From Gemmatimonadota bacterium (GTDB taxonomy: Bacteria > Gemmatimonadota > Gemmatimonadetes > Gemmatimonadales > Gemmatimonadaceae): a DNA stretch of 46,606 nucleotides. The DNA lies in NCBI GenBank assembly GCA_016871855.1, contig VHBQ01000015.1, forward strand, positions 1-46,606, written 5' to 3'. Both the position numbers and the translations under genes were made by a program. A model generated the notes under the pieces. The model was not told where the DNA came from and searched no databases. It was given only the letters and a program-made list of their open reading frames with translations. Below are positions 12,120 through 33,117 of this stretch, in pieces (the first letter of the stretch is position 1; every line of letters starts with the position of its first letter).

Positions 12120-12128
12120 CACCGAAGC

Positions 12129-12163
12129 CGGTGGACGGTGGAGGGTAGACGGGGGACGGGGAG
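12129..12163. repeat. Heptamer repeat, family A (copy 1, degenerate)
   Basis: Degenerate units of GACGGTG/GACGGTA and GACGGGG lie upstream of the helicase gene and of the divergent TonB-plug gene. No inverted arm is seen here. Confidence 0.6.
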
Positions 12164-19613: not shown

Positions 19614-21017
19614 CTAGGCGTGAATCATCTTCCCCATCGAATCCAGCACCGCCTCGGCCACAGCCTCGCTGAGCGTCGGATGCGCGTGGATAGCAAGGTC
19701 GACTTCCTCCACCGTGTACTCGTTCTCGCGGGCCACGAGCAGTTCGTGGATCATCTCGGTGACGTGCGGGCCCACGAGGTGCGCGCCGAGGATCTCGCCG
19801 TACTTGGCGCCGCGAATGATCTTCACGAAGCCCTCGGTCTCGCCCGCCGTGCGCGCGCGGCCGTTGGCGCTGAACGGGAACTTGCCGACCTTGTAGTCGA
19901 GCTTCTTCTCCTTGCACTGCGCCTCGGTGAGGCCGATCGACGCCACCTCGGGATGGCAGTAGGTGCAGTTGGGGATGTTGCCGTAGTTGATCGGGTGGTG
20001 ATGCTGCCCGGCCACGATCTCGGCGACGATCACGCCTTCGCGCTCGCCCTTGTGGGCGAGCATCGGCGGGCCGGCGACGTCGCCGATGGCGTAGACGCCC
20101 TTGGCCGTCGTCTCGAGCTTGTCGTTGACCTTGATGAAGCCGCGGTCGGTGAGCTGCACCCCGGCCTCCTTGAGGCCGATGTTCTCGACGTTCGGCGCGC
20201 GGCCGGCGGCGACGAGCACCTTCTCGACGGTGATCTCCTCCTTCTTGCCGCCCGCCTCGACGGTCAGCGTCACGCTGTCCTTGCCGGTCTTCGCGCCCGA
20301 GATCTTGGCGCCGGCGAGGACGTCAATCCCGCGCTTCTTGAACGAGCGCGCGACCTCGGCGGAGCTGTCCTCATCCTCGAGCGGGAGGATGCGGGGGAGC
20401 ACCTCGATGACCGTCACCTTGGTGCCGAAGGCGTTGAAGACATCGGCGAACTCGCACCCGACGGCGCCGGCGCCGACGACGGCCAGCGTCTTCGGCGCCT
20501 TTTCGAGCACCAGCGCTTCATCCGATGAGATCACCGTCGTCTTGTTGAGCTCGAGCCCCGCCTGCGGCAGCCCCTTCACCCGCGAGCCGGTGCCGATGAT
20601 GAGCGCCTTGGTCGCGGTGTGCGTCTCGGTCTTGCCGTCGCCCGTCGTGACCTTGACGGTCTTGCCCGCGCCGATGACCCCCGTCCCCTTGATCCAGGTG
20701 ATCTTGTTCTTCTTGAAGAGGAACTCGACGCCCTTGGAGTTCTTGGTGGAAACGTCGCGCGAGCGCTTCATCGCCACGCCGTAGTCGAGCGTGATGTCGC
20801 CCACCTTCACGCCGAACTCAGCGGCGTGCTTGAGGCGATTGGCGATGTGTGACGACTCGAGCAGGGCTTTGGCGGGGATGCACCCCCACAGCACGCAGGT
20901 GCCGCCCAGCCCCTCGCGCTCGATGACGCCGACGGTGAGGCCAAGCTGGGCCGCGCGGATGGCGCCGACGTAGCCGGCGGGGCCGCCGCCGAGGAAGATC
21001 ACATCGAAGTTTGCCAT
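19614..21017 (-). CDS. lpdA: Dihydrolipoyl dehydrogenase (E3)
   Basis: A 467-residue flavoprotein that re-oxidises dihydrolipoyl groups of 2-oxoacid dehydrogenase complexes and glycine cleavage H protein, passing electrons to NAD+. The FAD-binding fingerprint GGGPAGYVGAIRAAQLG lies at the N-terminus, and the redox-active pair is Cys41 and Cys46 in GGTCVLWGCIPAK. An NAD-binding GAGAVGCEFADVF follows, and the C-terminal interface has HAHPTLSEA with the catalytic His-Glu. The frame is open upstream, but that part only translates a family A repeat, so I start at ATG 21017 (MANFDVIFLGG). It is the last gene of the lipA-pdhABC operon. Confidence 0.97.
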   Translation of the reverse strand: MANFDVIFLGGGPAGYVGAIRAAQLGLTVGVIEREGLGGTCVLWGCIPAKALLESSHIANRLKHAAEFGVKVGDITLDYGVAMKRSRDVSTKNSKGVEFLFKKNKITWIKGTGVIGAGKTVKVTTGDGKTETHTATKALIIGTGSRVKGLPQAGLELNKTTVISSDEALVLEKAPKTLAVVGAGAVGCEFADVFNAFGTKVTVIEVLPRILPLEDEDSSAEVARSFKKRGIDVLAGAKISGAKTGKDSVTLTVEAGGKKEEITVEKVLVAAGRAPNVENIGLKEAGVQLTDRGFIKVNDKLETTAKGVYAIGDVAGPPMLAHKGEREGVIVAEIVAGQHHHPINYGNIPNCTYCHPEVASIGLTEAQCKEKKLDYKVGKFPFSANGRARTAGETEGFVKIIRGAKYGEILGAHLVGPHVTEMIHELLVARENEYTVEEVDLAIHAHPTLSEAVAEAVLDSMGKMIHA

Positions 21018-21026
21018 GGGGAAAGT

Positions 21027-21113
21027 GACGGTAGACGGTGGACGGTGGACGGTGGAGAACGGCGGACGGTGATCGGTCTCATCGACCGTCAACCGTCAAC
21101 TGTCAACCGTCCA
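21027..21113. repeat. Family A heptamer inverted repeat in the pdhC-lpdA gap
   Basis: The left arm has TGACGGTAGACGGTGGACGG-type units and the right arm CGACCGTCAACCGTCAACTG-type units, so the two can fold into an imperfect hairpin. The element fills nearly all of the 96-base gap. Confidence 0.85.
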
Positions 21114-22379
21114 TTAGAAGACCAGCATCAACGGGTTCTCGAGCATCCTTCTCAGATCCTGCAGAAAGCGCGCACCGACGGCTCCGTCGATCACCCGATG
21201 GTCGCAGCTCATCGTGACGCGCATGCGCTTGCGCACGGTGACCGCGCCATCGACGACCACGGGTTTGTCCTCGACCGCGCCGATGGCGAGGATGCCCACC
21301 TCGGGCGGGTTGATGATCGCGGTGAACTGGTCGATCTGCATCATCCCGAGGTTCGACACAGAGAACGTCGAGCCGGTGTATTGCTCGGGCGTGAGCTTGC
21401 GCTCCCGCGCCTTCCCGGCAAGCACGCGTGACTCCTGCGCGATTTCCCGCAGCCCCTTCCGGTCGGCGTCGAAGATCACCGGCACGATGAGCCCATCGTC
21501 GGTGGCGACGGCCATGCCGAGGTGGACGCGGTTGAAGAAGCGGATCCGATCGCCGAGCCAGTGCGCGTTGACGTCGGGGTGCGCGGCCAGCGCGGTGGCG
21601 ACGGCCTTCAGCACGATGTCATTGACCGACACCTTGAAATCGTCGCCAAGCGCCGCGGCCTGCGCGCGCATGTCGACGGCCCGCGTCATGTCGAACTCCG
21701 CGGTGAGATAGAACGTCGGGATCGGGCCGATGGACTCGCCGAGGCGCTTGGCGATGGTCTTGCGGATCTGGGTGAGGGGCTGGTCGGTGAAGTCGCCGAC
21801 GGTGGACGGTGGACGGTGGACGGTGGATGAGGCGGACGCGACACCACCCGCGACCGCTGCCTCCACGTCGCGCTTGATCACGCGGCCGCCGGGGCCGGAG
21901 CCGGGGACGGCGGCGATGTTGATGCCGCTCTCCTTGGCCATGCGGCGCGCGAGCGGCGATGACTTGGTCGGGCCGGACGCGGGGACCGCGGCGGACAACG
22001 CAGGCGCTGTCGGCGCAGTGGGCGCGGGCGCCGCAGTCGGTGCGGCGGTTGCCGCGGGCGCGGGCGTAGCCGCGGGCGCAGTCGCGGGTGCACTCGATGG
22101 CGCGGCGGAGGCGCCGCCAACCAGCGCGGCAATGTCTTCGTCAGCGCCGGCAATGATTCCCACGAGCGAGCCCACCGGCGCCGTGGTTCCTTCCGGCACC
22201 ATCTGCTTGCGCAGGACGCCGTCGCCGCGCGCGACCAGCTCCATCACGGCCTTGTCGGTCTCGACTTCGGCGAGCACGTCGCCCGACTTCACGGCGGCGC
22301 CCTCCGGCTTGTTCCATTTGACGAGGCGGCCTTCCTCCATCGTGGGAGAGAGGGCCTCCATGAAGATCTTCGTAGCCAT
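21114..22379 (-). CDS. pdhC: Dihydrolipoyl acetyltransferase, pyruvate dehydrogenase E2
   Basis: A 421-residue E2 core protein. One lipoyl domain spans residues 1-80, with the modified Lys43 in VETDKAVM. A long Ala/Pro linker follows, then a peripheral-subunit binding domain with KSSPLARRMAKESGI and GSGPGGRVIKRDV at about 140-175, and a catalytic domain to the C-terminus with DHRVIDG (His394, Asp398). E2 takes the acetyl group from E1 and gives it to CoA. The second linker, residues about 185-194, is encoded by a family A heptamer repeat and reads STVHRPPSTV; it separates binding and catalytic domains without breaking the frame. It sits between pdhB and lpdA. Confidence 0.96.
   Translation of the reverse strand: MATKIFMEALSPTMEEGRLVKWNKPEGAAVKSGDVLAEVETDKAVMELVARGDGVLRKQMVPEGTTAPVGSLVGIIAGADEDIAALVGGASAAPSSAPATAPAATPAPAATAAPTAAPAPTAPTAPALSAAVPASGPTKSSPLARRMAKESGINIAAVPGSGPGGRVIKRDVEAAVAGGVASASSTVHRPPSTVGDFTDQPLTQIRKTIAKRLGESIGPIPTFYLTAEFDMTRAVDMRAQAAALGDDFKVSVNDIVLKAVATALAAHPDVNAHWLGDRIRFFNRVHLGMAVATDDGLIVPVIFDADRKGLREIAQESRVLAGKARERKLTPEQYTGSTFSVSNLGMMQIDQFTAIINPPEVGILAIGAVEDKPVVVDGAVTVRKRMRVTMSCDHRVIDGAVGARFLQDLRRMLENPLMLVF
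21798..21827. repeat. Family A heptamer repeat inside the pdhC coding sequence
   Basis: Four perfect GACGGTG units plus GA (30 bases, a multiple of three) are read in frame on the minus strand as part of the E2 linker. There is no opposite arm here. Confidence 0.9.
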
Positions 22380-22398
22380 AGAACCGGGTGGTTCGAGA

Positions 22399-22493
22399 GT
22401 GACGGTGGACGGTGGACGGTGGACGACGGATGGTGGACGGGAGCGGTGGACGCGTGGAGGAGTCCACCGTCTACCGTCTACTGTCCACCGTCA
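22399..22493. repeat. Family A heptamer inverted repeat in the pdhB-pdhC gap
   Basis: The left arm has GTGACGGTGGACGGTGGACG and more units, and the right arm has GTCCACCGTCTACCGTCTAC and more. The outermost minus-strand TGA of the right arm is the stop codon of pdhB. Confidence 0.85.
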
Positions 22494-23471
22494 GCTCCTA
22501 TACATCACCTGCTTCACCGCCGCGATGGTCTTCGCGACGTCGGGCTTGGCGAGCTTTTCGAGCGTCTTGGCGTACGGCATGGGGACGTCGGTCTGGTGCA
22601 CACGCAGGACGGGGGCGTCGAGGTGGTCGAAGCAGTCGCGCTGGATGAAGTCCACCACCTGCGCGCCGATGCCGCACAGCTCCCACCCCTCCTCGAGCAC
22701 CACGGCGCGCTGCGTCTTGCGCACCGACGTGTAGATGGCCTCGGTGTCCATCGGCCGGATGGTGCGGAGGTCCACGACGTCCACGTGGATGTCCTCCTTG
22801 GCCAGCTGGTCGGCCACCTGCATCGCAACGAGCACCATCTTGCCGCTCGTGATGATCGAGCAGTCACCGCCCTCGCGCTTCAGCTCGGCGACGCCGATCG
22901 GGACCAGCACCTCGCCGTCCGGCACCTCGCCCTTGGTGTTGTAGAGCATCTCGCCCTCGAGCATCACCACCGGGTTGTCGTCGCGGATGGCGCTCTTGAG
23001 GAGCCCCTTGGCGTCGTACGGCGTGCCAGGCACCACGACCTTGATGCCGGGGATATGCGCGAGCCAGCTCTCGAAGGCCTGCGAGTGCTGCGCGGCGAGC
23101 TGCAGCGCGGCGCCGTTGGGGCCGCGGAAGACGATCGGCACGTTGTACTGGCCGCCCGACATGTACAGCATCTTTGCCGCCGAGTTGACCACCTGGTCGA
23201 TGGCGAGCAGGGCGAAGTTCCACGTCATGAACTCGATGACCGGGCGCAGGCCAACCATCGCCGCGCCGACGCCCACGCCGGAAAAGCCGAGTTCGGCGAT
23301 CGGGCTGTCCACGACGCGGTTCTCGCCGAACTCCTCGAGCAGGCCCTTCGAGACCTTGTAGGCGCCGTTGTACTGACCGACTTCCTCGCCCATGAGGAAG
23401 ACGCGGTCGTCGCGGGCCATTTCTTCGCGCAGCGCTTGGTTTAGAGCTTCGCGATAGGTGATTATCGGCAT
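22491..23471 (-). CDS. pdhB: Pyruvate dehydrogenase E1 component, beta subunit
   Basis: A 326-residue E1 beta subunit. It pairs with E1 alpha to decarboxylate pyruvate with thiamine diphosphate and reductively acetylate the lipoyl group on E2. Family landmarks are ITYREALNQALREEMARD, VFLMGEEVGQYNGAYKVSKG, RVVDSPIAELGFSGVGVGAA and the transketolase C-terminal EGWELCGIGAQVVDFI. The frame extends upstream to 23615 but that part is a translated repeat; ATG 23471 gives the normal N-terminus. The TGA stop lies within a family A repeat. Confidence 0.96.
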   Translation of the reverse strand: MPIITYREALNQALREEMARDDRVFLMGEEVGQYNGAYKVSKGLLEEFGENRVVDSPIAELGFSGVGVGAAMVGLRPVIEFMTWNFALLAIDQVVNSAAKMLYMSGGQYNVPIVFRGPNGAALQLAAQHSQAFESWLAHIPGIKVVVPGTPYDAKGLLKSAIRDDNPVVMLEGEMLYNTKGEVPDGEVLVPIGVAELKREGGDCSIITSGKMVLVAMQVADQLAKEDIHVDVVDLRTIRPMDTEAIYTSVRKTQRAVVLEEGWELCGIGAQVVDFIQRDCFDHLDAPVLRVHQTDVPMPYAKTLEKLAKPDVAKTIAAVKQVMYRS

Positions 23472-23493
23472 GAGAAGATTGGTGTTCAGGCGA

Positions 23494-23553
23494 GTGACGG
23501 TGGACGGTGGACGGTGGACGGTTGATCGACCGTCGACCGTCCACCGTCGGTCA
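23494..23553. repeat. Family A heptamer inverted repeat in the pdhA-pdhB gap
   Basis: TGACGGTGGACGGTGGACGG and further units are followed almost at once by GACCGTCGACCGTCCACCGT, so the arms can form a compact hairpin. The minus-strand TGA at the far end is the pdhA stop codon. Confidence 0.85.
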
Positions 23554-24606
23554 GCTAGTGGTGTCGACCAACACGTCCTCAAACAGCGCCCCCGCCGGCG
23601 GCTCGGGGCTGGCATCGGCGAAGTCCCACGAGTCCTGCACGATCGCGGCGATCTCCTTCTCCATCTCGTCCCACTCCGTCTGGGTCAGCGTCCCGGCGGC
23701 GAGCATCGCGTCGCGCAGGGAGAAGACGGGGTCGAGGCGCGTGTACTCGTCGAGTTCGTCCTTGCTGCGATAGGTGCCGCTCACCGCGTCCGACATCGAG
23801 TGGCCGCGGAAGCGGTACGTCTGCACCTCGAGCAGCGACGGCAGCGACTCCTCGCGCGCGCGCTTGATCGCCTTGGCCGACTCCTCGCGCACGGCGTGCA
23901 CGTCCATGCCGTCAATCAGGATGCCGTCGAGGCCGCGATACGCGTCCGCGCGCCGGTGGAGGTCGTCCACCGCCGCGGCCCGCTCCACCGCCGTCCCCAT
24001 GCCGTAGCGGTTGTTCTCGATCACGAACAGCACGGGGAGCTTCCAGAGCGCCGCCATGTTGAGCGCCTCGTGGAAGGCGCCGATGTTCACGACCGAGTCG
24101 CCCATGAAGCAGACGCAGACCTGGTCGCCGCCGCGGTACTTGATGGCGAAGCCAACGCCGGCGGCCAACGGCACGTGCGAGCCGACGATGCCGTGCCCGC
24201 CGAGGAAGTTGGTGTGGCGGTCGAAGAGGTGCATCGAGCCGCCCTTGCCGCGCGAGCAGCCGTCAATGCGGCCGAACAGCTCGGCCATCACCGCGCGCGG
24301 CGTGATGCCGCGCACCAGCGCCTGCCCGTGATCGCGGTACGTGCCGATCACATAGTCGTCGGGGCGGAGCTGGGAGATGATGCCCGTCGAGCAGGCTTCC
24401 TGCCCGATGTACAGGTGACAGAAGCCGCCGATCTTGCCGAGCGCGTACGCCTCGCCGGTCTTCTCCTCGAAGCGGCGCTGGAGGAGCATCGAGTGCAGCA
24501 GCTCACGGTCGAGCGTCGGGTCGCCCGCGGTACGCACGGTGCTGCGCGCGGTGCTGCGTGCGGCGCGCGGTTCACCCTTGGCGTCAGTCTTCTTCTTGGA
24601 GGCCAT
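23551..24606 (-). CDS. pdhA: Pyruvate dehydrogenase E1 component, alpha subunit
   Basis: A 351-residue E1 alpha subunit. The first 30 residues are a Lys/Ala/Arg-rich, probably flexible tail (RSTARSTVRT). The core starts at LLHSMLLQRRFEEKTGEAY. Cofactor-site segments include VIGTYRDHGQALVRG, GKGGSMHLFD and the thiamine-diphosphate/Mg motif beginning GDSVVNIGAFHEALNMAALW and ending in ENNRYGMGT. The usual GDG is GDS here. The phosphorylation-loop-like segment FRGHSMSDAVSGTYRSKDE is also typical. It lies 15 bases downstream of lipA and is followed by a family A repeat that starts at its stop codon. Confidence 0.96.
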   Translation of the reverse strand: MASKKKTDAKGEPRAARSTARSTVRTAGDPTLDRELLHSMLLQRRFEEKTGEAYALGKIGGFCHLYIGQEACSTGIISQLRPDDYVIGTYRDHGQALVRGITPRAVMAELFGRIDGCSRGKGGSMHLFDRHTNFLGGHGIVGSHVPLAAGVGFAIKYRGGDQVCVCFMGDSVVNIGAFHEALNMAALWKLPVLFVIENNRYGMGTAVERAAAVDDLHRRADAYRGLDGILIDGMDVHAVREESAKAIKRAREESLPSLLEVQTYRFRGHSMSDAVSGTYRSKDELDEYTRLDPVFSLRDAMLAAGTLTQTEWDEMEKEIAAIVQDSWDFADASPEPPAGALFEDVLVDTTS

Positions 24607-25649: not shown

Positions 25650-25720
25650 ACGTGGTGGTGGCCTCGATCGATGGTAGCGGGTGGCCACGGAGCCGCCCCG
25701 AGCGGGGGGACCGACTCGCT

Positions 25721-25743
25721 GGCAGGACGGCCGGTCCGCTGCC
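25721..25743 (+). other. GC-rich hairpin in the leader of the small membrane gene
   Basis: GGCAG-GAC pairs with GTC-CG-CTGCC around a GGCCG loop, with a two-base bulge. Several other GC-rich segments nearby could pair. I cannot match this to a known riboswitch or small RNA. Confidence 0.3.
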
Positions 25744-25815
25744 GACGGGACCCTCGCCGAAACCTCGGAGGGGGTGGTAGCGTATGTGAGTCAGAACCTG
25801 CCTAGAGGATTCTCC

Positions 25816-26031
25816 ATGCTGCGCACCATCTTCGGTATCGGCCTGCTCGCCCTGATCGGACTGTTCGTCCTGAAGGTCTTCTTCGGGCTCTTCGGGTTCC
25901 TCTTCGCACTGCTTTGGGTGTTGCTGGGCTGGGCGATTCGCATCGCGATCGTCGGCGGCATCATCTACCTGATCCTGCGGATCTTCCTGCCGGATACGGC
26001 GAAGAAGATTGAGGAGCAGTTCAATAAGTGA
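25816..26031 (+). CDS. Small two-helix membrane protein
   Basis: A 71-residue, strongly hydrophobic protein. One membrane helix covers about residues 4-25 (IFGIGLLALIGLFVLKVFFG) and a second, probably split, about 27-56 (LLWVLLGWAIRIAIVGGIIY). The C-terminus is short and charged (DTAKKIEEQFNK). The ATG at 25816 is preceded by AGAGGA. The longer frame from 25681 translates the GC-rich leader and is unlikely. I cannot assign a function. It is transcribed alone, divergently from lipA, and ends before a strong terminator. Confidence 0.7.
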   Translation: MLRTIFGIGLLALIGLFVLKVFFGLFGFLFALLWVLLGWAIRIAIVGGIIYLILRIFLPDTAKKIEEQFNK

Positions 26032-26054: not shown

Positions 26055-26090
26055 TGACGGTGGACGGTAGACGGTAGACGGTAGACGGAA
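26055..26090. repeat. Family A heptamer repeat next to a terminator
   Basis: About five units of GACGGTG/GACGGTA follow TGACGG, directly before the hairpin at 26092. Confidence 0.8.
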
Positions 26091-26091
26091 G

Positions 26092-26123
26092 ATGGGGCGG
26101 GATCCTATGGGATCCCGCCCCAT
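26092..26123. terminator. Bidirectional hairpin terminator
   Basis: A perfect 14-bp stem (ATGGGGCGGGATCC with GGATCCCGCCCCAT) around a TATG loop lies between convergent genes. T-rich tails are short on both sides. Confidence 0.8.
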
Positions 26124-26149
26124 TCTTGCGTCCGTTCATGCTGCGCTGT

Positions 26150-31513: not shown

Positions 31514-33025
31514 ATGAGCGGTGCAGCCGAATCGAACCGGGACGGCACGACGCTTCCCGCGTTCAAGCAGATGATGGGGCATCCGCAGCCCCTGTGGATG
31601 CTGTTCATGTCGGAGTTCTGGGAGCGCTTCGCGTTCTACGGCATTCGCTGGGCGCTGGTGCTCTACATCGTGGCGCAGTTCCACAACGGATCGCCCACGG
31701 GGCAGGCCCCGGCCAACCTGACGTACGGGTCGTACCTCGCCTTGGTGTACGCGGTGGCGATCTTCGGCGGGTACATCGCCGACAAGGTGATCGGCTACCA
31801 GCGCTCGATCCTCACGGGCGCGGTGTTCATGGCGGCCGGCCTGTTCATGATCGCGATCCCAAACCAGCTGATCTTCGACCTGGGGCTCTCGACGATCGTG
31901 GTCGGCAACGGGCTCTTCAAGCCGAACATCTCGACGATCGTGGGCAAGTGCTACGCGGCGGGTGACGAGCGCCGCGACTCGGGCTTCACGATCTTCTACA
32001 TGGGCATCAACGCCGGCGCGTTCCTGTCGCCGCTGCTGACCAGCTGGCTGGCGGATTCCGTGTTCGGTTCGGCGGGGATGCCGGCGTACAAGGTGGTCTT
32101 CCTGACGGCCGGCATCGGCATGCTCATCAGCCTCGTCTGGTTCTACCTGGGCCGCCGCCAACTGCAGGGCATCGGCGCGCCGTTGCCGGACCAGCAGAAC
32201 CGGATGCGCGTGGTCTACGTGGCGATCGGGGGCATCCTCGCCGTACCGGTCATCTACTCGCTGCTCGCCGTCGGCGGCAAGAACCTGCAGTGGGTGCTCT
32301 CGGCGATGTTCCTCGGCTTGTCGGCGATGCTGTTGATCGAGGGGATCCGCGAGGGGGCGGTGGCGCGCGACAAGACCATCGCGATGCTGCTGATCTTCGT
32401 GTTCAACATCACGTTCTGGATGTTCTTCGAGCAGGCGGGCAGCTCGTTCACCTTCCTCGCCGACCAGATCGTCAACCGGCAGTTCGGCGATTGGGTCTTC
32501 CCGACGGGATGGTTCCAGAGCGTGAACGCGGTGGCGATCATCATCTTCGCCCCGATGGTCGCGTGGGTGTGGGTGGCGCTCGCCAAGATCAATGCGAATC
32601 CGTCGATCCCGCGAAAGTTCGGCCTCGGCCTGATCTTCAACGGTCTCGCCTTCCTGCTGCTGATGTTCGCGCTGTCGAGCCTGCTCAACCCGGCGACGAA
32701 CCTGATCCCGTTCTGGACGCTCGTGGCCGTGTATCTCATTCAGTCCATCGGCGAGCTCTGCCTGTCACCGATCGGCCTGTCGATGGTGACGAAGCTGGCG
32801 CCGGTGCGCCTCGTCGGACTCGGGATGGGCGGCTGGTTCCTGTCCACGGGCATCGGCAACAACCTGTCGGGCATCTTCGCCTCGGAAGTGAGCGGCGAGA
32901 CGGGGATGACGGTGCAGTCGGCGCTGGGCGGCTACACGTTCGGCTTCTGGGCGCTGACCGTCGCCGGAGTGATCCTGCTGATCGCGGCGCCGCGGGTGCA
33001 GAAGCTGATGCATGGGGTCAAATAG
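31514..33025 (+). CDS. POT/PTR-family peptide:H+ symporter
   Basis: A 503-residue inner-membrane transporter of the proton-dependent oligopeptide family (DtpT type), importing di- and tripeptides. The signature SEFWERFAFYGIRWALVLY lies in the first helix and contains the ExxER-type proton-coupling motif. FKPNISTIVGKCY and FTIFYMGINAGAFLSPLL match the conserved helix 4-5 region. About 12-14 hydrophobic segments can be counted. The ATG at 31514 has GGAGAAG upstream. It ends before a good terminator and faces the peptide ABC operon on the other strand. Confidence 0.93.
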   Translation: MSGAAESNRDGTTLPAFKQMMGHPQPLWMLFMSEFWERFAFYGIRWALVLYIVAQFHNGSPTGQAPANLTYGSYLALVYAVAIFGGYIADKVIGYQRSILTGAVFMAAGLFMIAIPNQLIFDLGLSTIVVGNGLFKPNISTIVGKCYAAGDERRDSGFTIFYMGINAGAFLSPLLTSWLADSVFGSAGMPAYKVVFLTAGIGMLISLVWFYLGRRQLQGIGAPLPDQQNRMRVVYVAIGGILAVPVIYSLLAVGGKNLQWVLSAMFLGLSAMLLIEGIREGAVARDKTIAMLLIFVFNITFWMFFEQAGSSFTFLADQIVNRQFGDWVFPTGWFQSVNAVAIIIFAPMVAWVWVALAKINANPSIPRKFGLGLIFNGLAFLLLMFALSSLLNPATNLIPFWTLVAVYLIQSIGELCLSPIGLSMVTKLAPVRLVGLGMGGWFLSTGIGNNLSGIFASEVSGETGMTVQSALGGYTFGFWALTVAGVILLIAAPRVQKLMHGVK

Positions 33026-33028
33026 CAG

Positions 33029-33057
33029 ACGGTGGACGGAAGACGGTAGACGGTAGA
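33029..33057. repeat. Family A heptamer repeat next to a terminator
   Basis: Four units of GACGGTG, GACGGAA and GACGGTA lie between the symporter stop and its terminator hairpin, the same arrangement as at 26055. Confidence 0.75.
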
Positions 33058-33060
33058 ACG

Positions 33061-33094
33061 CGAACGGCGGCCGGTGGCCGCCGTTCGTTTTCTT
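33061..33094 (+). terminator. Intrinsic terminator of the peptide symporter gene
   Basis: CGAACGGCGGCC pairs perfectly with GGCCGCCGTTCG around a GGT loop and is followed by TTTTCTT. It separates the symporter from the convergent ABC operon. Confidence 0.9.
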
Positions 33095-33117
33095 GGTACT
33101 GTGCGCTTTAGAAGGGC

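Follow-up and report, generated by a model that had tools for sequence, protein, structure and literature searches.

Four-heptad boxes at gene borders in a Gemmatimonadota genus often hold their sites while their copies change together

The stretch of DNA analyzed here—the window—comprises 46,606 nucleotides (nt), positions 1 to 46,606 of contig VHBQ01000015.1 in the Gemmatimonadota assembly GCA_016871855.1 (Gemmatimonadaceae). It carries a pyruvate dehydrogenase (pdh) operon of four minus-strand genes, assigned by Pfam to E1-alpha, E1-beta, E2, and lipoamide dehydrogenase. The gaps between these genes measure 79 nt (pdhA–pdhB, 23472–23550), 111 nt (pdhB–pdhC, 22380–22490), and 96 nt (pdhC–lpdA, 21018–21113), and each is filled by the heptamer GACGGTN on one side and its complement on the other, exactly as had been described in an earlier reading of the sequence alone (the sequence-only reading). 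That reading overlooked the rule of four units per run of heptamers (an arm), an arm inside pdhC, two further arms in the window, and the genome- and genus-wide extent of the feature (Table 1). The genome-wide search and the comparison with sister species that it had proposed confirm the array as real and show its frame, the pdh operon, to be too narrow. Its unit is a discrete box of four heptads, which in many cases holds its site while its copies are rewritten together.

Table 1. Genes of the pdh operon and four-heptad arms in the window
Feature	Positions	Strand	Remarks
lpdA (E3)	19614..21017	-	Pfam Pyr_redox_2, Pyr_redox_dim
Four-heptamer arm	21027..21053	+	pdhC–lpdA gap, lpdA start side
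Inverted partner arm	21085..21111	-	Adjoins pdhC stop
pdhC (E2)	21114..22379	-	Pfam 2-oxoacid_dh, E3_binding, Biotin_lipoyl
Single four-heptamer arm	21798..21824	+	Within pdhC (E2) coding region, linker between E3-binding and catalytic domains
Arm	22401..22441	+	pdhB–pdhC gap, pdhC start side; 3 intact heptamers, then degenerate units
Inverted partner arm	22466..22492	-	Own first GA completes the TGA stop of pdhB
pdhB (E1 beta)	22491..23471	-	Pfam Transket_pyr/Transketolase_C
Four-heptamer arm (GACGGTG x3, GACGGT)	23496..23522	+	pdhA–pdhB gap, pdhB start-codon side
Inverted partner arm	23529..23548	-	3 intact heptamers, adjoins pdhA stop; to 23555 with a degenerate fourth unit
pdhA (E1 alpha)	23551..24606	-	Pfam E1_dh 7e-84
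Single arm (GACGGTG GACGGTA GACGGTA GACGGT, then GACGGAA)	26056..26082	+	After the gene called at 25681–26031
Single arm	33028..33054	+	2 nt past the gene called at 31514–33025

The source of the window is a metagenome-assembled genome (MAG) of 2.99 Mb in 159 contigs, 85.6% complete and designated G000; its pdhB sequence places it among Gemmatimonadaceae MAGs. A mechanical scan for period-7 self-similarity over 398,672 bases of this genome yields 65 segments, 59 of which have the consensus GACGGTN; the other periods from 4 to 13 give at most eight segments each, and period 14—the double of 7—gives 42. Base 7 of the 59 segments is G in 45, A in 8, T in 5, and C in 1. The arms have a preferred length of four units: the 92 strict arrays found in 841,717 bases consist of 3 units in 14 cases, 4 in 60, 5 in 8, 6 in 5, 8 in 3, and 9 in 2. 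When units with one mismatch are added, 20 of the 25 perfect two-unit runs become exactly four units long and none remains at two, and 8 of 16 runs of exactly three become four. Alignment of 57 four-unit arms gives the consensus RNW GACGGTN GACGGTN GACGGTN GACGGTN GAT with sharp edges. The arm scans require GACGGT or GAYGG and leave base 7 free, with thresholds of 16, 17, or 18 of 20 depending on the analysis; the contrast between base 7 and the other bases therefore rests on the unbiased period-7 scan and on the identity of neighboring units, and statistics on base 3 are biased.

Arms occur singly or as convergent pairs. Neighboring strict arms up to 150 nt apart in the source genome (n = 28) are oriented “+−”, that is, convergent, in 25 cases, “++” in three, and never “−+”; the same count in sister species gives 31 “+−”, one “++”, one “−−”, and no “−+”. 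Counted as elements under strict criteria (n = 64), they comprise 23 “+−”, two “++−”, one “++”, and 38 single arms, and a relaxed scan leaves 48 of 100 arms unpaired. The spacers of convergent pairs range from 6 to 93 nt and are mostly unrelated in sequence, and a mobile unit with a fixed spacer is rejected on this ground. The best local scores among the 19 spacers of at least 20 nt are 15, 14, 13, and 13 compared with a maximum of 12 in three shuffles; a few of the 19 may be related. Two spacers contain what is by eye a terminator-like hairpin (C1 31651 and C2 31423). Unpaired arms carry 0.74 and paired arms 0.72 mismatches of 24, the scan being blind to arms with more than four mismatches and the comparison of limited power.

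The placement of the arms relative to genes was analyzed with gene calls from our own codon-model script, checked on the pdh genes only. The 64 elements lie between codirectional genes (40), convergent genes (8), and divergent genes (4) or inside called genes (12). Divergent gaps are rarer among arm-bearing gaps of at least 60 nt (Fisher p 6e-4; p 0.22 over all neighboring gene pairs). In 68 of 81 intergenic arms (p 4e-10), the GACGGT strand points away from whichever gene is closer; this holds for 40 of the 46 paired arms and for 28 of the 35 solo arms (p 5e-4 for the latter). The arms are divided evenly between gene 3′ ends (42) and 5′ ends (39). Of the 42 arms at 3′ ends, 29 have their outer edge between −2 and +9 relative to the stop codon; 17 of the 42 start 1 to 2 nt inside the stop, their own first GA or G completing the TGA or TAG. 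At 5′ ends, 16 of 39 arms lie 5 to 10 nt ahead of the start codon. The sequence-only reading had seen no ribosome site for pdhB, pdhC, or lpdA, and this absence holds statistically: a 4-mer resembling a Shine–Dalgarno (SD) site lies upstream of 2 of the 33 genes that are preceded by an arm at no more than 40 nt versus 245 of 695 other genes (Fisher p 2e-4), the shuffled upstream regions giving 123 of 728. Arms take the place of SD sites, and genes with an arm just upstream probably begin translation by other means.

The extent of the arms reaches far beyond the operon. The 2.99-Mb assembly contains the 14-mer GACGGTGGACGGTG 321 times, with 160 and 161 occurrences on the two strands and none of the reversed pattern; a feature unique to pdh is thereby rejected. 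The counts are 0 to 24 in ten genomes of the same genus (the sisters) and 0 to 2 in the 49 other genomes searched. The more general pattern GAYGGNR x3 is present in 57 of 295 genomes of the class, at 411 places in the source genome and 78 to 271 in the six sisters drawn, sporadically in the rest of the family (181 in G185, 0 in many), and at few places outside it; its reversed control is not clean in several genomes because arrays of the GATGGCA type fit both readings. The density of arms amounts to 12.0 per 100 kb in the source genome and 4.0 to 15.3 in sister stretches, which for G001, G002, G003, G004, G007, G009, and G010 lie partly on contigs chosen for a known GACGGT match or for their pdh genes. 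What is peculiar to the source genome is the dominance of one heptamer type, GACGGTG, and not the number of arms. A multiplication of arms in this lineage is rejected accordingly: the heptamer type spread, and the arm density is not raised. Other Gemmatimonadota carry, as judged by eye, unrelated heptamer arrays in the same pdh gaps, mostly as inverted pairs (L158, L160, L179, L184, L187, and L188), with heptamers such as CGGTGAT-like (L160), CTAGNGN (L158), GCGGTGA and GGGAGTC (L184), GTAAGCG (L188), and GGAACGC (L179); many further members have, again by eye, short pdh gaps without arrays. No description of such elements in Gemmatimonadota was found in the open-licence literature, the only literature covered.

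Nine of the ten sisters have a close pdhB (89–92% identity), and G002 has only distant relatives. Across 317 comparisons of conserved adjacent gene pairs, representing 177 distinct gaps of the source genome, an arm is present in both species in 35, in the source genome only in 20, in the sister only in 2, and in neither in 260; the shuffled regions give 1 of 634. Hence, the sister also has an arm in 35 of 55 comparisons with an arm in the source genome versus 2 of 262 without one. The comparisons are not independent since the pdh operon is counted many times in this set. The sequence-only reading had named as adverse to its own proposal a combination of short gaps in sister species with an array unique to this locus; short gaps are indeed found for pdhA–pdhB, and the array is far from unique. 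The pdhA–pdhB gap measures −1 to 4 nt and is without an array in all eight sisters that have it in view, which shows that the operon can do without the array there, and this element is most simply a gain in the lineage of the source genome. The 20 gaps with an arm only in the source genome are longer than their counterparts (median 80 versus 13 nt), and at least 7 of them are pdhA–pdhB itself.

While sites are largely kept, the heptamer changes. Of 18 orthologous arms, defined by the same site and side in at least one sister, 16 vary among species in their type at base 6 (T, C, or G), and 34 of the 47 sister arms in this set are uniform at base 6 over all four units. Where both arms of a pair can be followed (n = 12), 8 pairs switched together to the same type and one to different types, one shows a switch in a single arm, and two show no switch. 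Neighboring units in sister arms have the same base 6 in 555 of 748 cases (0.74 versus 0.46 when dealt anew), agreeing likewise, at base 7 in 406 of 748 (0.54 versus 0.46), and at base 3 at a rate of 0.70 versus 0.55, the last being biased by the scan; none of 300 shuffles reaches the agreement at base 6, base 3, or base 7 in the pooled sisters. Base 7 is nearly but not wholly free. The two arms of a sister pair share base 6 in 25 of 31 cases (16.1 expected) and base 3 in 30 of 31 (21.9 expected), and of 52 neighboring arms separated by more than 150 nt, 22 have base 6 in common.

Arms inside coding sequence can be followed codon by codon. Four of the 12 in-gene arms of the source genome sample were traced: those in E2, chosen because it lies in the window, in a molybdopterin dehydrogenase and a cysteine-rich-domain protein (Pfam names), and in a fourth gene without a family name. 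An arm of 16 of 20 or better lies at the same codons in 30 of 35 sister genes: 7 of 9 for E2, 10 of 10 for the dehydrogenase, 9 of 10 for the cysteine-rich-domain protein, and 4 of 6 for the fourth gene. Against 200 codon shuffles of the stretch, 29 of these arms score above every one and the remaining arm above 199. The protein sequence at these arms varies between species, and the 4 × 7 pattern is retained. Of the 30, 19 carry one and the same base 6 throughout (7/7, 4/10, 6/9, and 2/4). The E2 arm reads GACGGTA GACGGTG GACGGTT GACGGTA in G003 and GACGGCA GACGGCG GACGGCT GACGGCA in G006: base 6 is changed in all four units and base 7 in none, a result that neither slippage nor copying from a different arm would easily give.

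The four-unit mode, the polarity, the placement, the conservation of sites, the mostly concerted base 6, the nearly free base 7, and the co-switching of paired arms are, in our tentative judgment, best read as four contiguous heptad sites for a putative multimeric sequence-specific DNA-binding factor. Each arm would be a cis-acting recognition site of four contiguous 7-bp boxes—GAYGGNR, or GACGGTN in the source genome—that is read as a unit. The candidate factor would be homomultimeric, with one protomer or dimer per heptad and four in a row forming the cooperative unit. Base 6 would be the specificity base, so that an arm moving to a new specificity changes all four boxes together, and base 7 would be an unread spacer. 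Arms are located at gene borders, pointing away from the gene, and some coding regions tolerate them; if each of the two flanking genes has an arm, the pair would in addition be a potential mRNA hairpin that separates the cistrons and replaces the SD site. The reader is presumably a protein that binds double-stranded DNA, and its effect may be that of a border, an insulator, a nucleoid function, or a control of read-through; the even distribution over strands (160/161) and over 3′ and 5′ ends (42 and 39) favors a reader of double-stranded DNA over a reader of sense RNA. A precedent is the ribbon–helix–helix (RHH) protein ParB/omega of pSM19035, which binds one 7-bp nonpalindromic repeat per dimer and needs at least four contiguous heptads for full ParA activation (PMC9499535). 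Held with greater reserve is the wider proposition that these four-box sites, kept in place across species and even within conserved coding sequence, are read by a fast-changing trans-acting code, the specificity base being rewritten in every box of both arms as if readers and sites co-evolve.

Several observations weigh against such a reader. The concert at base 6 is incomplete: 13 of the 47 orthologous sister arms and 11 of the 30 in-gene sister arms are of mixed type, and the arms of G004 as a whole are mixed (0.22 versus 0.33 expected); mixed arms tell against a strict reader. The likeness of neighboring units at base 7 is slightly above chance, reached by none of 300 shuffles in either the source genome or the pooled sisters, and species mostly differ at base 7 in the cysteine-rich-domain gene. 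The presence of several heptamer types in one genome would require several factors or a relaxed one, and the unrelated heptamers in the same pdh gaps of other Gemmatimonadota fit a general process better than one factor. The omega family PF07764 is found in none of the 11 genus genomes, a result that is uninformative since the control genomes gave none either; RHH_1 (PF01402) has matches in 7 of the 11.

Largely conserved site and unit number with a changing heptamer, as seen across the ten sisters, argue for either a box reader or a copying process and speak against slippage and against three-tetrad G-quadruplexes as the source of the number four. The latter would make the arms self-spreading or homogenizing repeat DNA, copied by ectopic conversion, template switching, or a mobilizer and overwriting orthologous arms, with gene borders and protein linkers merely the places where copies survive. 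This account, which we consider rather unlikely, is favored by the takeover of the GACGGTG type in one lineage (321 exact 14-mers versus 0–24 in the sisters) and agrees with the gain or expansion seen at pdhA–pdhB and in the other longer gaps of the source genome, with the shared type of paired arms, and with the slight likeness at base 7. Against it, the arms as such have not multiplied, pair spacers are mostly unrelated, and decay is no further advanced in unpaired than in paired arms; moreover, base 7 is far less homogenized than base 6, and the base 7 pattern of the E2 arm survives a switch of type. The transposase family Y1_Tnp occurs in only 2 of the 11 genus genomes, some of which are incomplete MAGs, and the copy in the source genome lies on a contig without arms. 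That copy (L091, contig C122, 489–845) is a fragment of a transposase gene interrupted by a single internal TAG; its contig is 3.6 kb long, and we take the fragment to resemble an ordinary IS200 TnpA. Repetitive extragenic palindromic (REP) sequences had been invoked by analogy in the sequence-only reading; this analogy fails in the tests made, and with it the candidate of REP doublets forming hairpins (REPINs) mobilized by REP-associated tyrosine transposases (RAYTs), as the arms are not imperfect palindromes, singlets are not more decayed, and there is no link to a RAYT.

Improbable as the general explanation, and third after the multimeric reader—tentatively placed first—and overwriting by copies, are paired arms that act as mRNA hairpins between cistrons by blocking exonucleases, by termination or attenuation, or by replacing the SD site and lowering translation of the next gene. 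The possibility of hairpins, raised in the sequence-only reading, is borne out by calculation: the pdhA–pdhB, pdhB–pdhC, and pdhC–lpdA gaps fold at −40.2, −47.9, and −40.0 kcal/mol with z values of −6.57, −5.08, and −3.75 against dinucleotide shuffles, and 0, 0, and 1 of 200 shuffles, respectively, fold as well. The shared type and the co-switching of paired arms (8 of 12) are as expected of a paired structure, and the scarcity of divergent gaps and of SD sites beside arms points the same way. However, 38 of the 64 elements are single, and single in-gene arms are kept across species. Pairing at base 7 is not retained either: complementarity across the hairpin in the source genome is found in 34 of 84 cases versus 0.377 in shuffles (p 0.26), and the other register gives p 0.50. 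At least four arm-bearing gaps have, by eye, an additional hairpin resembling a terminator, located in the spacer or directly past the arm. The more specific idea that the hairpins tune the relative levels of E1, E2, and E3 is left unsupported by arms that occur genome-wide, many of them single and some inside coding sequence.

G-quadruplex sites would explain the number of four units by the need for four G-tracts, in keeping with the G-rich strand and with the GGG of the G-type arms (GATGGGA) in some sisters; two-tetrad forms from GG tracts would be possible as well. We regard this origin as very improbable: of 526 units in the source genome, 420 have T at base 6 and only 30 have G, leaving mostly GG tracts, and four-unit arms are also of the T and C types, so that a three-tetrad G-quadruplex is not the cause of the four. 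Least credible of all is a functionless simple sequence repeat from polymerase slippage. In its favor, heptanucleotides outnumber all other long simple repeats in most genomes of an earlier survey (Mrazek 2007, as reported in PMC4679880); against it stand the sharp four-unit peak with no true two-unit runs, the copies within an array differing at base 7 more than elsewhere, and the four units kept at orthologous sites across several heptamer types.

Four-unit heptamer arrays are known from few bacteria, and slippage, G-quadruplexes, and global regulators have been proposed for them. The closest known system are the GGGAATC and GGGGA(C/T)T heptamers of Xanthomonas and Nostoc, which share with the arms the conserved and free positions in the unit, the position close to a gene from which the G-rich strand points away, the overlap with stop codons, and the scarcity between divergent genes, the Xanthomonas repeats also sharing the four-unit majority and the convergent inverted pairs (PMC4692102). 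The GGGAATC repeats are in the same gene context in 83% between two species, and a G-quadruplex was proposed (PMC4692102). The arms of Gemmatimonadaceae, in contrast, belong to another phylum, have another heptamer, and are mostly without a GGG tract; they feature switches of the heptamer at orthologous sites and at conserved codons, whereas the excerpted account of the former repeats describes variation in length and sequence and reports no such switch (PMC4692102). The “H4” sequence of Geobacter metallireducens—four tandem GGACCGG in 49 copies, within and between genes—resembles the arms, and Geobacter class 1–3 sites are paired on opposite strands at variable distance; their sequence is unrelated to GACGGTN (PMC2700814). 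The parS sites of pSM19035 are similar in being contiguous, nonpalindromic 7-bp sites in direct and inverted orientation and differ in their AT-rich heptad WATCACW, their 7 to 10 repeats, and their restriction to one plasmid system (PMC9499535). Direct repeats of the heptamer TAACTGA in Beggiatoaceae lie, like the arms, near start codons that mostly lack a recognizable ribosome site (PMC4679880), and REP/REPIN sequences are likewise short, dispersed, mostly extragenic inverted doublets capable of forming hairpins (PMC3116915).

The arms can serve directly as bait sequences. Should there be a reader, a control not yet annotated would act at many operon borders of these bacteria; and if the co-evolving code holds as well, the arms would belong to one unrecognized class of bacterial gene-border element that includes those of other Gemmatimonadota, Xanthomonas, Nostoc, and perhaps Geobacter.

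The two single intergenic arms of the window are each accompanied by a further structure. Just inside them, at 26083–26130 and 33056–33095, lie GC-rich hairpins with T-rich tails, as judged by eye. The T tail after the 26056–26082 arm is short, and the 33028–33054 arm precedes a hairpin with a T-tract (by eye). The latter arm has counterparts at the same place in five sister species, and its hairpin recurs, again by eye, in several sisters while the arm itself changes. A search of the window against the Rfam RNA families gave no match above the gathering score. The 250-nt pdhC–lpdA gap of L169 holds a palindromic repeat of a different kind, ATTCCCGCGAAAGCGGGAAT, in several copies. Finally, a weak degenerate array (GCCGGTG GACGGTG GAGGGTA GACGGGG GACGGG) lies at 12127–12160 of the window between divergent genes.

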